64,000 bases of DNA from Phorcus lineatus. Taxonomy: Eukaryota; Mollusca; Gastropoda; Trochida; Trochidae. Position numbers and translations under genes: made by a program. The stretch is from assembly GCA_921293015.1 (NCBI GenBank), contig OV121088.1:28309645-28373644 (forward strand). Direction: 5' to 3'. Below are positions 5,651 to 60,167 of this stretch, piece by piece. Within the stretch, counting starts at the first letter, position 1, and the number at the start of each line of letters is the position of its first letter. The notes under the pieces were generated by a model. The model saw only the letters and a list, made by a program, of their open reading frames with translations. It did no database searches and was not told the origin of the DNA.

Positions 5651-8600
5651 TGACTTTGATTCACTAATGCAGATCCGTTCTTGATGAAATGAAATCAAAT
5701 GAATAAGCAAAATGGTTTTGTCTTCAATAAAACATAAATATTGTAACAATCTGGATGAATGCAATTAATACTTTACACATACCGATGAAAGAACACACCT
5801 GGCAAGTCGCTGCTAATTACATTGTTATATTAAACAGGTATGTTGGATATGTACCAGGAAGACAAAGAGATTCACCGAACCAAGTCGGGCCATTTGCGAG
5901 AGTACATACTTGAAACCTAGAGGACGTGAATAATCTTTAAAAGAATATGTAACCGTAAATCAATAGTGTTTCATAATGATTAAAAACTAATAACTAATTC
6001 ATTTATTCGTTTCTATGACAACTGGTATTTCAGTTTCCATCATGATTTCCATTTCAATAAGCTTCCACACTAACTAATCTGAATGCCTTATGATTTTAAA
6101 AACGTTTGAGTTGTTAAACTTTAAGAGATCATGTTGTATTGACTTCATGTACGTTAAGTATGACATCAAGATTAAATATATATGTGTAGTCCTTTCACTC
6201 TTTTCAATTTCATTTGTAATTAGTTCTAGTTCACTTTTGAACACATTTATAGATAAACTGAGAATTTGAAATAGCATCATTATTCAAAGGAATGTGTTCT
6301 CACTGAAAAATACTCATTACATTTTATTTTTCTTGGAAATATCATTTTCAAGCTATCAGCACAAACAAGATAAAAAACCAATATATCCTATGTCCTATCA
6401 ATCTGATATATGAGCAAACAAAGCTATTTTCCTTCTAATTTGACGAACCCAACGCCTGTAGTTTTCGATTATCATTCTTTTTCACCAAGAATTGCTGCTC
6501 ATTTTATCCGGATGACCGTTTGACCGGTCATTAGTAAATCTCTTCCAGGAATTATTCATGCGGAAGTGTAATAAGACACCACAGTATATTCTTGTTCAAC
6601 AACCATGTGGTATAGCTTTTCTCCTTGTACCAGTCAGGCGTTGCCACACCAGTACAGAGAGCACGAGGGGGTTCATCTGGCTGTTATAGGTAGTCATGTA
6701 GAGAAGCATTACACGCAGGTAATTAGATCCAGATAAAGAAAGGTGGGGAGGTGGTGTGGAGGTAAATGACACCCCATCTGATGGACCGAATGTTTGGAAA
6801 GATCAATCATCTTCTGACAGTTAGATGTACAACTTCTAAATACAATGTTTGTTTTCTTATATACGGTTGAAGAGGTGAAAAGGTCGTACCTACATAAAAA
6901 CATTTTTAGCAGGCATTCCTTAAGTAAACAGTAGCATCCGAGAAGAAGAATACGGACATGTTTCCTAATGAAATGTTAGATCTACTAATTAGTGGGCATT
7001 TCATGAACGTAATACGCATGTCCATTGAACATATATGAATGTTATTAGATATGAAACGGTTACATTGCATCCCAGAAGTTTGTTCTCTCTCGCAGTTTAA
7101 CTACACATGGGTTATTACAATAGCGCTAATGTTAGACCAACAACACGTGTCAAAATTTTCCTATTTGCCTAGCATTTGAGAATATAGTAGCGTACCTATA
7201 ATTTGTTAGGGATTGTGATAGGCAAAGTGCTCAATTCTTTTAAAGTTTCCTTTAAATACTGGGTTTTACATAGGAATTGTAAAGTAGGTGAACACACTTA
7301 CGAGATGCAGCAGTTTCTCTGTCTTAAATCTGGTTATAGCCAAGGTTGTATCATTGTAAGGCGTGTTGTACGACTGCCACAGCCTGCTAAAATCTACTTT
7401 ATAATTCAAGAGTCAATTAGCGATGTGGGGATATCGACCTATCCATTCTAAAAAATCTTTCCTTCAAAGGCATTGCATGATTCACTGCAGTCGCAGGACT
7501 CTAGGGATTTCCTTTGTGAAATATTCACATTTCCTTAGCCCTAAATGCAATGAATCCCCAGTTTTAAGAACTTTCATCAATTAAGTTAATCATTAGCTGA
7601 AAATCATTTTAAAACGTGATCAGCCTAACTGAAATGTCATATAGTCAAGTAGTTCTGTTTCAAAAGATATTTATCAATAGTCAAAATTGAAAAAATGTTT
7701 TCTCATGTACCGCTATGAATTCTAATTAGGCAATCCCAAGATAAAATAATATGGTTTGAAAAATGGTATTCAATATTGAAAAATAAATCTCTGAAATATA
7801 AGTGTTTGAGTGCAGTCAAATTCGTACACAAAGTTCAATGTAAATTAGTTTGGTAACGATTTCCATCTTATTTGAAGGAAAATCACAGATGGAACCTTAA
7901 CAAACGTGTGTAGAAAACACCTGACAAAGACAACAGCTGTATGGCAAAGAAATGAAGCACGCCTTATCGATTTGCCAAAGTTTGTAACAGCTCTCTTCTA
8001 CCACCATCGGACGAAACGTGTTACTGGCGAGCAGGGGGAAATACTTCTCATTCATTATAGTATTAACTAGGTGAATGTTGGGAATTACTGCCAACAGGAC
8101 AGAGTCTTACTGGGACACAAACGGCTTCATGCTGTGGCCTATTTTCTACTTGAATATCTACGAGATAAGTTTGGTTCATTCCGATAGTTGGAATAGGCTT
8201 ACTGGAGAGACAATATTGACTTCTATGAGCATCCAACGACTGATTGACCACACTTCTGTGATTGTAAAAGCGGATAAATGAGAGTCACGTTATTTTCTTT
8301 CTGTCAATAAATTACAGAGGAGTCAGTCTCTAAGTCAATAATGATTTGATTTCTGAATGTAAAAGCATTAGCAGTAAGACACATCACATACATAGATCGT
8401 GTGTATTGACCGTGTGAAGATTGGGCAAGTTTATCTCCAATGTTGCATCAAAATGGTGAACTCAGAGCGATAGAACTTAAACTTACACGGCAATTGCCAA
8501 TTTAGTTGGAAACGTTATTTGGAAATTCCTGACATCGTAGGAAAAGACATTTGTCAACACTAACCTTTGTCCGATTATTCTCCATTTGGGTAATTTGGTA

Positions 8601-9971
8601 TGTTGACGTACACTTTTCCAAACATGCATTACATGGTCAAGTTACCAAATATAGATTATTCAATAAATTTTCTTTCAAATAAACATTAGAACACAATGTG
8701 TGGTAGAACTTTTCGTGGTATTATTGATTTATTTTGGTATTGGTTTACAGCTATAATGACCTTAAGGGATTATACTTAGAACATCCCTGGCCGCACGGAA
8801 ACCATCTTTTTGTAGCATTCCCTTTGGACATGAGGGTTTTTGCTATTCTACCATCAGTGTGAAATTGTTACATTTGTGAAAACACTCACTGCAATGGTAC
8901 AAATTCTTTTACTTTTAAAACTCGGACACCACGCCTCGATAATGTGGGCAGGTTGGTTAGCCTTTCGTACAGTAAGTGGTGTTGCCCAGGCTTTGTGTTA
9001 GAATACAATAAGGGTCTCGACTGGAAAAATACAACACGGGATTTTACTATTGCAGATAGGGTGATCCCAAACATAATATTGTTACATTTCTTAACTTTCA
9101 AACTGACGTGTATTTTTTATTTGTCATCAGTATCAAACAGAAAACGTTCCATAGAAACTTTGAATGGATTTCTGAAACATTTCCCAAAGTTTCGGGTTCA
9201 TTTATTAACGTTCCCTATCCTAAATCCTTATATTTCAAATGAAAGTGCCTCATTACTTTAAAAAGTTCAGTCGAATTGAGACAACAGATATTTAACACCA
9301 ATCATTGGAAATCATTATCATTAATCCGTAAACGATATTATCATTAAAGTATAATTCCTCTATTCCGTTTAAAGCTGTCAGTATATTCTTCAAATGTTTT
9401 AATTCGATCAGCGTTTTACGCTCTTGGTAACAGATTCATTGAAAACAACATATACTGTTTATTTGCAATATTTCCTGGATAGCATAGCAAATGATTTATT
9501 GCTGACATACACGACACCGTACACAATACGTCGTTATTGTTCCCTTAAACAGACTTGTTGTGACTTCTATTTTCTGCATCAAGTATCCAAGTACTTTAAA
9601 CGTGCATATGACATCAATCCAATAAAAACATAGGAGACGAAAATCTGCAATCTTGAACTATATATGAATCTGAATCTATGATAAAAACTGCGTACTGAGT
9701 TGCCTGACTTATTTCTGTCACAATGACACTTCACAGGCAGTGTAAAAGCCATTGATTGTATTGATCTTTTAGCCAACATATGCATTCACCGTAGATTGTC
9801 AGACAAGGCGATATTCAACAATTGATGCCGTAATTGAAACAAAACTGTTCCAATTTGAACGGACTATCGACTGTTCAGTTAACTTTAACAAAGATCAAGC
9901 GATACTTTAGACTTGATTAGAAACCCATCACGTCGACTGCGAAACATTAATGTGCTCTTGTTAAATTGGAG
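4635..9971. other. AT-rich intergenic DNA
   Basis: No gene seen. It holds the TA microsatellite at 5582-5648. A short piece near 8143-8185 resembles the start of block R1 (the words ATCTACGAGATAAGTTTGG also occur near 20706 and 33566). Open frames here are short, lack domains or exon signals, and are taken as chance. Confidence 0.5.
5582..5648. repeat. TA dinucleotide microsatellite
   Basis: An almost perfect run of about 33 TA units. It is likely to vary in length between individuals. Confidence 0.95.
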
Positions 9972-30042: not shown

Positions 30043-31471
30043 CAGCAAAGGGAACGCGAAAATTTAAGAGGTCAATTTATAACTAAAATTTCTGAATTTT
30101 GAACATCTGGAATTAAAAGGCTAACAAGTTTAGATAAAACAACTCCCCCAAACGCAACAAAGCTGTGGGCCATGGGTAGATGTTGCAGTCATCGCTCGAG
30201 CAAACCAAACTGCAGGTGCATTGCTTGAAAGCTGGGGGTATAAAATGTGTTAAGACAGTGTGCCTGACAGTTCAAATTTGCAAGCAACAGGTATGCACCG
30301 ATTGACGTCAGTGGAGAGGGAACAGTCTTTTGGCCGCTTGATAGCCGGACAGCGTACTCAGGTGGTTGCTACTGCGTACAACGTCATGTCAGCACTATCT
30401 ATCGTCTTCAACAACGCCACAACGCCACCAACAGTACTGCAGACAGGGTCCGTAGTGGACGCCCCCTAGTGACCACTCCCAGGCAGGACAGCCACATTGC
30501 TCGGCAACATCCCTTCAGACCAGCCACCGTAACTGCTCGTCAGACCATTGGCACTCGACAGCCCATAAGTAGTGACACGGTACGATGTCGCCTAGCAGTC
30601 CACAATCTTCGTTGCCGACGTCCTGCTCGACGTCCTATCCTCACCGCCCGTCACCGACAAGCACGAATGCAGTGGGCTACACAACACCGACATTGGCGTC
30701 AGCAACAATGGAGGTCCATAATCTTCTCAGATGAAAGCAGATACTGCGTTTCAACCTCGGATGGACGGACGAGAGTGTGGCGTCGGAGGGGTGAACGTTT
30801 TAGAGATGATTGTGTGATGGAAAGAGACGCATGGGTCGGTCAGAGCATCATTGTGTGGGCTGCTATAGGTCTGAATCAGAGAATTGGACCCCAAGTCTTC
30901 CAAAATCTTGGTGCAGGACGAGGACATGGCATAACGGTACATTGACCAGATCCTCAGACCTCACATTGTGCCTTTCTTTGCTCAATGTACCAGATGTTCC
31001 AGCAGGATAATGCCCGTCCCCACACAGCCAGAGTCACTACCGATTTTTTACGCCAAAACAACATCAGAACAATTCAATGGCCGGCCCTTAGTCAAGATTT
31101 AAACCCAATTCAACATCTGTGGGATGAAATCCAGAGACGTTTGAATCAAGTGGTTCCAAGGCCGAGAACTCGTGCTGAACTGGAAGCATCTCTCCTCAGG
31201 GTTCACGCGCAGATGCCATGGGCTTTTGTTAATCGGCTCATTAACTCCATGAACCGACGTTGTATGGCTGTTCTGAACAACCAAGGAGGGCATACCCGGT
31301 ACTGACATTGCAACGCCCCCTATGTGACAGATCCACCCATTAAAAGACATCTTTGGAATCCAGTTGGACTATTGTCAAAGTGTTAACTTTAAAGGATCGA
31401 ATTCCATTCTTACTTTTGTTCATCGTTTGAATTAACTTTAACTAAAAGATATCTCGCGTTTCTTTTGCTGT
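30042..31471 (+). mobile_element. Tc1-type DNA transposon, inactive
   Basis: A 1430-bp element flanked by TA. Its ends read ACAGCAAAGGGAACGCGA at the left and, inverted, ACAGCAAAAGAAACGCGA at the right (16 of 18 positions match). It contains one transposase pseudogene in + orientation. Length, TA target and transposase motifs fit the Tc1 group of the Tc1/mariner superfamily. Confidence 0.9.
30293..31305 (+). pseudogene. Tc1-family transposase, frameshifted and lacking the catalytic Glu
   Basis: A cut-and-paste transposase relic. It starts at ATG 30293 (HRLTSVEREQSFGRL, the N-terminal DNA-binding part). The frame changes near 30420; from about 30442 it reads DRVRSGRP, the GRPR-like hook, through FSDESRY with the first catalytic Asp. 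It shifts again near 30930 and near 30980, then reads QQDNARPHTAR (second Asp) to the TGA at 31303. The third catalytic residue, expected 35 positions after the second Asp in NPIxHLWDE, is Gln (CAA) instead of Glu. So at least three frameshifts plus one active-site change make it dead. The pieces add up to the usual length of about 340 residues. Confidence 0.9.
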
Positions 31472-57378: not shown

Positions 57379-58355
57379 TCAATACACTAAGATTTAGTCT
57401 ATGAAAAATTTTAATAATTAAATGTTCCTTTATCCATAATTTATTTTTTGGGCTCCTTATTTCATTCATTAAATGTGTATTTAGTCAATCTAGACTTGCT
57501 GTATGAGAAACTAGACTGTATTAAAGGCTCCTTTATATACACAGTCATGAAGCAGGACTAAGCCTTCAATGGCGGGATATTTCTTTCCATGAAGTACAAT
57601 GATTATATCAATAAGAACTTATGAATGAAGTACATTCTACGTTTTGTAAACGTTTGATGATGAACAAGTAATGTGTTATAGATTAAACAGGTATATTGCA
57701 CATTAATAATATGTACCAACTTCTTTGTTATTAGCTGACTACACAGTACACAGTTTCTTAAGTCGTTGCAATAACAACCAATATCAGTTCAGCTTGCTTA
57801 GATACTTTTTATTGCATAAGGCTGTTAATGCAGCTAATAAAACAACATTGCGAGTCAATAACTGGGAAATGAAGGCGAGGGGTTTCATCTCTGCCTTGTG
57901 ACGCTTGGAGTCTAGACGTACCTTAATGGAAAAATATGAATAAAATTAATGGGTAAACTTAGAAGTATAATAAACGTATTTGGGATCACTATATCTGTAA
58001 AAAAAATTCTTGACCTTTGAATTGGTGGAAAATCTGTTTGTACGGTGAGTGCTGGCGAAAATTGAATGAGTCTGAGCGTCTGTATTTGAATCCCAAAGGA
58101 TCAAACCCGAAAATATTTATGTGAATTTGAATTATGAAAATGTGATCCAAAATGTTACAATGTTGCACATTAAACTTCATAACTGGTACAAGAAGTTGAT
58201 TATCAGAGTTCGTTTTAAATAATTTACCAAATAGTGGACCCAGTAAATATATTGTTCTTTAAAAGACTTTTCCTGTTATTGGATTGCACGTTATGAATGA
58301 ATATAAAAAAGAAGGTTTATCTTACTGGGACTGTCGTACCTATGTTCCTTCTTGT
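57379..58355. other. 3' flank of the W-x-x-N gene
   Basis: Includes the 3' UTR of the gene to the right (read leftward). No canonical AATAAA (TTTATT on +) was found within about 500 bp of the stop, so the poly(A) site is unknown. No other feature seen. Confidence 0.4.
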
Positions 58356-60116
58356 CTAGTACATGCCATTGTTTCTACAGGACATTCTGTTCCACATTCC
58401 TTGTCCCATTTGACCGAAGAGTTCCCAGTTTTCACGAGAACAGCTGTTTGAGGAAGGGAAGTCCGTGGACTGCATACAGCGCGAGTAGGAGCTGTTACCA
58501 TATTAAAACGTCATGTTAACTTCATTGTGAACATCTATTGACATCTATCATAAAAGGGAAGAGCAGAATTCGAATACATAAAAACAATTATACAGTCATA
58601 ACAGATTTCAATTGAAAGATTCAGGCTTGGTTATTTATTATATGTTGCAAAACTACGAAATAGTCAAACATGTATCTAGGTAATGTTTTTATTTTCTGGG
58701 TATCTAGAGAAACACTGGCACTCATTTTTGAGTATTTCCAAAATGGACTTACCACATATCGAAGTCATTGGACCACATCATTCCTTGGTTGCACTGGGAC
58801 ATTCCATTGTAGAACTCATCGGATCCCCAACAAGATTCTCCGTTGATGAAACCTGATGAGGTAGATAGTTTCCAGTTATTTTCATCAAATAGTTAATGTG
58901 ATATTTTATAACTATGGACAGAATCAACAATTTAAACGTTGCAGTCCCAGATTTAACTTACCTTCGCTGTTATCACACATAAAGTTCCAGGTCATAAAGG
59001 TGTAACCAAACATATTGTTGTAATCCCAGTCACACTGAAAATCTCTTGCTTTTTGGAAACACGCCTCGGCTGCTTGCCTCTCCTCGCTGTTGATAGAGAA
59101 GTTAATCATTTTATAAATGAGGCGTTTGGACAAAAGTTTCGAACAAAATGTTAAGTTAAACACACTAACGTTCGAGGCACTTTCGTGGATTTCCATTACT
59201 AACATTTAACTACACTGTCGATTATCTTTGGCAATTATTTGTAAAAATGAGTTGCTGCATACTTGCATGGAACTGTGAATTGTCCGTTGTAACTATAAGG
59301 TCATGATATTAAATTACACTGAATATAGAATGAATTGCAACATACCCGCACGGAACTGTCAGCTGTCCGTTGTAGGAATATCTGTATTCATTCAAGTACA
59401 TGGCTGGTCTCATCATTTCCATGCATTCTCGTTGTATAGTATAGCATCTTGAAAATCGGTTTTGTTCCCAGTTTTGTTCCCAATTCTGTTCCCAATTGTC
59501 ACCCCAGTTTTGTCTCCAGTTATCTCCCCAGTATCGGTTCCAGTTTTGTTCCCAGTTCTGCCCCCAGTTATCTCCCCAATTCTGTCTCCAGTTATCTCCC
59601 CAATTCTGTCTCCAGTTCTCTTCCCAATTTTGTCCCCGTTTGTCACCCCAATTCTGCCTCCAGTTCTGTTCCCAGGATTGGCATAGGGCTGGAACCAAAT
59701 CGACATGGTAGTTGACATTATACATTAGAGGTATCTAATTATCACTTGGTATTTCATCGTATTCTTTCAGTCAGTTATTTTTCACCAATTGTCACGTCAT
59801 CCTATAAAAGCCAGAGTATTTGTTCTGATAAGAGACGCCACCGTTTCACCGCAATACATAACCACAATGGTGTTGCTGGCCTTCTCCCTGCATTAATATT
59901 AGCTGTCGTGATATAAGTGAAATACTCTTGAAAGCGGCGTTAAACCCCAGATCACATCACCTTAACTGATAAGAGATTCATCGGAACATATACCGTGGGT
60001 TATCGACTTAATTGAAATCTTAGCAATGGTCCCTAAATATTCTTAAAGCAGTAGATAACACGAATTAACTTACCTAAACAAGCCAAAACAACCAGGAGAG
60101 AGATTTTTAACGCCAT
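58356..60116 (-). CDS. Secreted W-x-x-N repeat, Cys-rich protein (five exons, 248 aa)
   Basis: Exons on the - strand: 60116-60074, 59688-59346, 59086-58962, 58852-58753 and 58491-58356. Introns are 385, 259, 109 and 261 bp, all GT-AG with phases 1, 2, 1, 2, and the total of 747 nt includes the TAG. Residues 1-17 are a signal peptide (MALKISLLVVLACLALC). Residues 20-91 are 18 tetrapeptides of W-x-x-N type, mainly WEQN, WRQN and WGDN; unit 3 is WGDK, unit 4 RGQN and unit 12 WNRY. Residues 96-248 hold 12 cysteines (96, 103, 128, 138, 147, 166, 178, 191, 204, 209, 221, 242), suggesting a disulphide-bonded domain, rich also in Met, Asn and Trp. No transmembrane segment follows the signal. I know no family with this layout. 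An extracellular matrix, mucus, shell or egg-coat role is conceivable but only inference. A TATA box and initiator precede exon 1, and a SINE sits in intron 1. Confidence 0.85.
59263..59292 (-). pseudogene. Ghost or cassette microexon (30 nt) duplicated from the end of exon 2
   Basis: In intron 2, a 30-nt stretch between an AG and GTATGC repeats the exon 2 end: it encodes YNGQFTVPC where exon 2 has YNGQLTVPC. Inclusion would keep the frame and add ten residues. Against its use: only 53 bp would separate it from exon 2 and the pyrimidine tract is poor. It is most likely the remnant of a partial tandem duplication. Confidence 0.45.
59400..59688 (-). repeat. 12-bp coding minisatellite
   Basis: About 18 copies of a 12-bp unit (59415-59682 at the widest) encode the W-x-x-N tetrapeptides. 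Because 12 is a multiple of three, every frame on both strands stays open here, which produces several false open frames. Copy number probably varies between alleles. Confidence 0.8.
59839..59962 (+). repeat. tRNA-headed SINE, copy 11, in intron 1
   Basis: ACCGTTTCACCGCAATACAT to GCGGCGTTAAACCCCAGATC then ACATCACC. Antisense to the host gene, 5'-truncated, wholly inside intron 1. Confidence 0.8.
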
Positions 60117-60132: not shown

Positions 60133-60167
60133 AGAATGATCAACTGATTGAAGACCACGTTTATATA
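60133..60167 (-). promoter_or_regulatory. TATA box and initiator of the W-x-x-N gene
   Basis: TATATAAA lies at 60167-60160 on the - strand. TCATTCT, a perfect YYANWYY initiator, lies at 60139-60133 with its A at 60137, 30 bases from the first T of the TATA box. This predicts a 5' UTR of about 21 nt before the ATG at 60116. Confidence 0.65.

Follow-up and report, generated by a model that had tools for sequence, protein, structure and literature searches.

Gene organization of the locus

The window analysed here, a 64,000 nucleotide stretch of Phorcus lineatus contig OV121088.1 (positions 28,309,645 to 28,373,644 of the forward strand), contains on its minus strand a gene of five exons, all four of whose introns have GT..AG borders and whose unbroken reading frame of 747 bases encodes 248 residues and a stop codon. 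The predicted protein has a hydrophobic N-terminus, an array of Trp-rich tetrapeptides (tetrads) and a Cys-rich C-terminal tail. The same contig carries, 3.3 Mb away, a paralogue with five matching exons. The features of the window gene, in the direction of its transcription and with positions in the window, are:

60160..60167, minus strand: TATA box TATATAAA, at -51 from the ATG, its function presumed from its position and from an arrangement common to both paralogues
60074..60116, minus strand: exon 1, with the start codon, the putative hydrophobic signal peptide MALKISLLVVLACL (judged by eye) and a GTAAGT donor; 52 bases in the paralogue
59346..59688, minus strand: exon 2, with the end of the putative signal peptide, all 18 tetrads and the first three Cys of the tail; 379 bases in the paralogue
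59459..59674, minus strand: array of 18 tetrads, each encoded by 12 bases, that makes up residues 20-91 (coordinates from the exon model)
58962..59086, minus strand: exon 3, with tail Cys 138, 147 and 166; 125 bases in the paralogue
58753..58852, minus strand: exon 4, with tail Cys 178 and 191 and bases 1 and 2 of the Cys 204 codon; 100 bases in the paralogue
58356..58491, minus strand: exon 5, with base 3 of the Cys 204 codon, tail Cys 209, 221 and 242, and the stop codon; 133 bases in the paralogue

This organization agrees with a preliminary description of the window in the five-exon model, its coordinates and its stop and in the presence of a core promoter, for which the paralogue has a counterpart, TATAAAGC, at -49 from its ATG, and a further TATA-like match at -118. 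TATA boxes at -51 and -49 would fit a regulated promoter. The hydrophobic N-terminus, judged by eye, is present in both proteins. The program TRF reports the array as a tandem repeat with a period of 12 at 59459-59675. The first A(A/T)TAAA lies 543 bases past the stop codon in both genes (at 57813 on the minus strand in the window), which may be a coincidence.

The tetrad array and the Cys-rich tail

The units of the array are, in order, WEQN WRQN WGDK RGQN WEEN WRQN WGDN WRQN WGDN in the first half and WGQN WEQN WNRY WGDN WRQN WGDN WEQN WEQN WEQN in the second. The 18 tandem W-x-x-N tetrads previously described are thus present as tetrads, and 15 of them are perfect; Trp is first in 17 and Asn fourth in 16, the imperfect units being WGDK, RGQN and WNRY. 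Residues 19-91 (73 in all) include 17 W, 17 N, 11 Q, 7 E, 7 G, 6 R and 5 D, and the whole protein has 23 Trp among its 248 residues. All 17 Trp of the array fall in one of the four possible phases, which none of 100,000 random placements matched, and runs of three or more consecutive Trp at a spacing of four are absent from every other stop-to-stop frame of the window, so this periodicity is not due to chance. The charges, earlier called balanced, are roughly so, with a net charge of -5 for the array. The 248 residues contain no N-x-S/T site (there is one N-S-C).

The tail contains 12 Cys (residues 96, 103, 128, 138, 147, 166, 178, 191, 204, 209, 221 and 242), the number first reported for it, and it is rich in Met and aromatic residues and has a net charge of -7. 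An internal repeat in the tail, in which the Cys would form four triplets, was considered and rejected; its segments are no more alike than shuffles that keep the Cys fixed (six pairs, p 0.08 to 0.59).

It had been proposed that the Trp side chains lie on one face of a helix. For the whole 72-residue array the hydrophobic moment is 0.01 at 100 degrees per residue versus 0.39 at 90 degrees, and for 11-residue stretches the values are 0.37 and 0.42, respectively, so the proposal fails for an ideal α-helix over the entire array and holds locally, over about three tetrads. By simple arithmetic, the Trp stripe on such a helix would rotate 40 degrees per tetrad and make two rounds in 18 tetrads. An AlphaFold2 model of exon 2 alone, from the single sequence, has a helix at 3-98 with a mean pLDDT of 66.9 (61 of 113 residues at 70-90) and a pTM of 0.29, and decides little; the prediction for exon 3 alone has a helix at 2-19 and a pLDDT of 58.7. 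A superhelix, a four-residue turn geometry and a disordered sticker chain are all compatible with these results.

A second gene and selection on the pair

The paralogue (C13:31,678,277-31,682,265) has the same intron phases and GT..AG borders as the window gene and encodes 262 residues, and the two proteins are identical at 220 of 247 aligned residues. By the Nei-Gojobori method (residues in gaps, 1 in the window protein and 15 in the paralogue, were left out of the rates) dN is 0.055 and dS 0.776, an overall omega of 0.07; taken separately, the repeats have an omega of 0.056 and the tail one of 0.062 (the dS of the repeats, 1.37, is uncertain because repeat units may be misaligned). None of the 12 tail Cys differs between the two proteins, and opposite each of the 17 Trp in the window gene's array the paralogue likewise has Trp. 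The array of the latter is longer, with 21 tetrads (19 of them Trp-first) versus 18, which suggests that array length may be free to vary while Trp, Asn and Gln are held. In both genes WNRY is the seventh unit from the end of the array, and a single unit close to its beginning starts with Arg (RGQN in the window gene, RAQN in the paralogue); these common features suggest that no homogenisation of the units has taken place since the genes duplicated.

Comparison of the two genes by blastn finds similarity at exons 2-5 and, over 33 bases, at the start codon. The introns are otherwise unalignable and differ in length by up to 14-fold. That the introns barely align argues for an old duplication and against two alleles or an assembly artefact. 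Within intron 2 of the window gene, 33 bases (59259-59291, minus strand) match the end of exon 2 of the paralogue at 88% and are perhaps a partial exon duplicate. On the substitution rates, the pair are old duplicates under strong purifying selection, in the repeats and the tail alike.

A repeat with a 12-base period could in principle be a DNA satellite in which a reading frame is open by chance and no gene exists. Repeats of this kind often leave open frames other than the main one, and of the 236 prokaryotic or viral stretches listed with the five-Trp DNA pattern, 32 had an open Trp frame that exceeded the other two forward frames in length. The 40 of these stretches richest in W-x-x-N are mostly WN-type simple repeats or have a longer neighbouring frame; in some, such as L211 (viral, with a 258-residue frame), L084 and L091, neither of the other two forward frames is as long as the Trp frame. 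Against a satellite stand the five-exon paralogue with its omega of 0.07 and the results of a six-frame substitution test between the paralogues. The frame given above is free of stops across repeats and tail, with an omega of 0.06 in both, and each of the other five frames is broken by 2 to 10 stops within the tail; in the repeats alone four other frames are stop-free, and one of them, antisense, has an omega of 0.12. The behaviour of the tail identifies this frame as the coding frame and not a shadow of another, and a satellite with a chance open frame is for practical purposes refuted. The window gene and its paralogue are real, strongly constrained protein-coding genes, and the earlier suggestion of a probably secreted, Cys-rich protein is likewise supported, with repeats and tail both constrained by selection.

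Relatives in the genome and in databases

No third copy of the gene was found when the genome was searched exon by exon with either tail, a search that distant relatives could escape; with the two tails as queries, 8 of 8 and 8 of 9 matches are exons of the two genes, and the ninth match has an E value of 6.93. The pattern W-x-x-N-W-x-x-N-W occurs at 64 places in the 958 Mb genome, versus 46 for a reversed control pattern, and 11 of the 64 fall within the window gene and another 11 form a cluster in the paralogue (C13:31,680,858-31,681,100). The other places inspected (the first 20 listed, L009-L028, plus L030 and L031) are short, of low complexity, or in the following open reading frames. L011, L024 and L026, on contigs C2, C9 and C11, are near-identical frames 742 to 939 residues long, probably encoding a mobile-element protein. 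L031 (2803-4686, minus strand) is a long frame that has Gly-Trp-Asn-Ser repeats, a stretch rich in Ser, Thr and Asp, and an end rich in Cys, a candidate for another Trp-repeat protein; it has no tblastn match to the window protein.

The statement that the protein belongs to no recognised family stands for Pfam with the whole protein, for the PDB with tail and array searched apart (no credible match, best E 0.56) and for NCBIfam with the tail (no match). The tail by itself, for which separate searches had been proposed, also matches no Pfam family at E values up to 10, a search in which the HMMER filters discard most weak matches. The one Pfam match of the whole protein is to DUF4816 (PF16086; residues 19-52 against positions 7-40 of the profile, 13.1 bits, E 0.093); membership was rejected, as the score is far under the curated cut-off of 29.4 bits and probably reflects composition. 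A search of the Phorcus genome for the Cys-rich secreted domain DUF19 (PF01579) gave no match at E up to 1, a result of little weight, as 14 controls likewise gave none.

Secreted proteins that combine repeats with Cys-rich regions are common in molluscs, and its layout, a tandem array of low complexity with a Cys-rich region after it, places the window protein in this loose class, which is not a homologous family. Within this common class the repeat is a new one. In agreement with the preliminary description, which knew of no protein with such a layout, we found none with Trp at nearly every fourth position in the literature searched (mostly open-access, at the level of titles and abstracts). 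In PMC8715435, WXXN denotes one motif of fungal ToxA-like proteins and not a repeat.

Three known systems are closest to the window protein. The adhesive foot protein Pvfp-1 of the mussel Perna viridis has tandem repeats that contain Trp, and W-x-x-W or W-x-x-C is the acceptor motif for C-mannosylation. Neither motif occurs in the 248 residues of the window protein, so its array Trp are probably not C-mannosylated, and a C-mannosylated adhesive protein of the Pvfp-1 type was rejected; the window protein also differs from Pvfp-1 in its four-residue unit and 12-Cys tail. The likeness is that of a molluscan secreted protein with notable Trp, some of which is C-mannosylated in Pvfp-1 in a role that a review terms speculative (PMC4275877). 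Tintinnidorin, from the shells of tintinnid ciliates, is described in PMC13408134 as having a signal peptide and being Trp-rich (3.5-4.7%), with Trp and Tyr as proposed stickers in a sticker-and-spacer assembly; its modules are of 78 residues and Cys is absent or rare, in contrast to the four-residue unit, 23 Trp in 248 residues and 12-Cys tail found here. On present evidence the window protein counts as a member of neither the Pvfp-1 nor the tintinnidorin group. The pedal mucus proteins of Patella vulgata are also gastropod and secreted, and 13 of 14 have 3.9-15.1% Cys, but recognised domains (vWFD, EGF, KSPI, SRCR) are common among them; one has Ser-Pro-Thr-Thr repeats, and Trp is not named in the main text (PMC7333891).

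Possible functions

Our preferred reading, a tentative one that we hold at somewhat less than even confidence, is that the protein is an exported extracellular building material such as a gel, mucus, film, coat or glue. The hydrophobic N-terminus would direct export from the cell, and the 72-residue array of Trp, Asn and Gln with scattered Arg, Glu and Asp would be a multivalent sticker, copies of which may associate through Trp stacking, Trp-Arg cation-π contacts and Asn/Gln hydrogen bonds; the 12-Cys tail would be a head, held together by disulphides, that serves to anchor or crosslink the array. Export, self-association and a role in a matrix are all deduced from sequence, and the sticker idea from composition, which in residues 19-91 is of the sticker-and-spacer type. 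The hydrophobic N-terminus and TATA box on a five-exon model support this reading, as do the close identity and low omega of the pair and the retention in the paralogue of every tail Cys and array Trp; the stickers proposed for the tintinnid shell protein are a precedent. The difference of 18 versus 21 tetrads, with composition and the WNRY unit kept, is as expected if multivalency outweighs exact length. Trp is a costly and rare residue. Against a matrix role are the net charge of the array and its content of just 6 Arg in 73 residues, a sequence equally suited to glycan binding, the weak structure predictions and the finding of two genes; bulk structural proteins often form larger families.

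A polyvalent glycan- or chitin-binding secreted protein, in which a ladder of Trp stacks on sugar rings and the tail is a folded carrier, is possible but distinctly less probable. The regular spacing of Trp beside Asn and Gln favours it, and Trp-sugar stacking is established for carbohydrate-binding modules; these, however, carry their Trp on a folded surface, whereas the array is known here from sequence alone, and no carbohydrate-binding family in Pfam matched the protein. We consider it unlikely that this is a reproductive or egg-coat protein (structural or storage) from the gonad or an albumen-type gland, where lineage-restricted secreted repeat proteins are common, as many gamete-recognition proteins evolve fast and omega here is 0.07. 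Trp-rich antimicrobial peptides are well known, and Trp in the array could serve for membrane insertion in a defence or venom-type protein, but those in the literature surveyed are cationic, in contrast to the negative net charges of both array and tail, making this the least likely of these three alternatives, and improbable. A more far-reaching proposal, to which we give little credence, is that the array has an undescribed regular fold (for example a right-handed superhelical rod or assembled ladder whose Trp spiral turns once in 36 residues, nine tetrads per turn) and polymerises extracellularly into a Trp-based biomaterial undescribed in animals.

If the array does self-assemble, as the extracellular material reading supposes, the protein would be a compact natural model of extracellular materials driven by Trp, with the 18- and 21-tetrad paralogues as two diverged natural versions for comparison. 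If it is merely a lineage-restricted secretory protein, the two genes still make up a well-supported orphan pair.

Other features of the window and the genome

Elsewhere in the window, 1043-2341 on the plus strand is an open reading frame for a rhodopsin-type G-protein-coupled receptor (Pfam 7tm_1, E 1.5e-66, the whole profile in one open stretch), which by eye resembles a biogenic amine receptor. At 30268-31305, also on the plus strand, is the remnant of a Tc-type transposase in two adjoining open stretches, the first of which matches HTH_Tnp_Tc3_2.

Contig C74 of the assembly is mitochondrial, with COX1 identified by profile and the other genes by eye (invertebrate code). Its gene order is COX3, ND3, ND2, COX1, COX2 and ATP6 on one strand, and ND1, ND6, CYTB, ND4L and ND4 on the other. 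Vetigastropod snails and some other molluscs have such an order, which points to a mollusc, probably a vetigastropod. About 2.7 kb of this contig (L041, about 6300-9000) translates to (MY)n under the invertebrate code and is probably a simple AT-type repeat.
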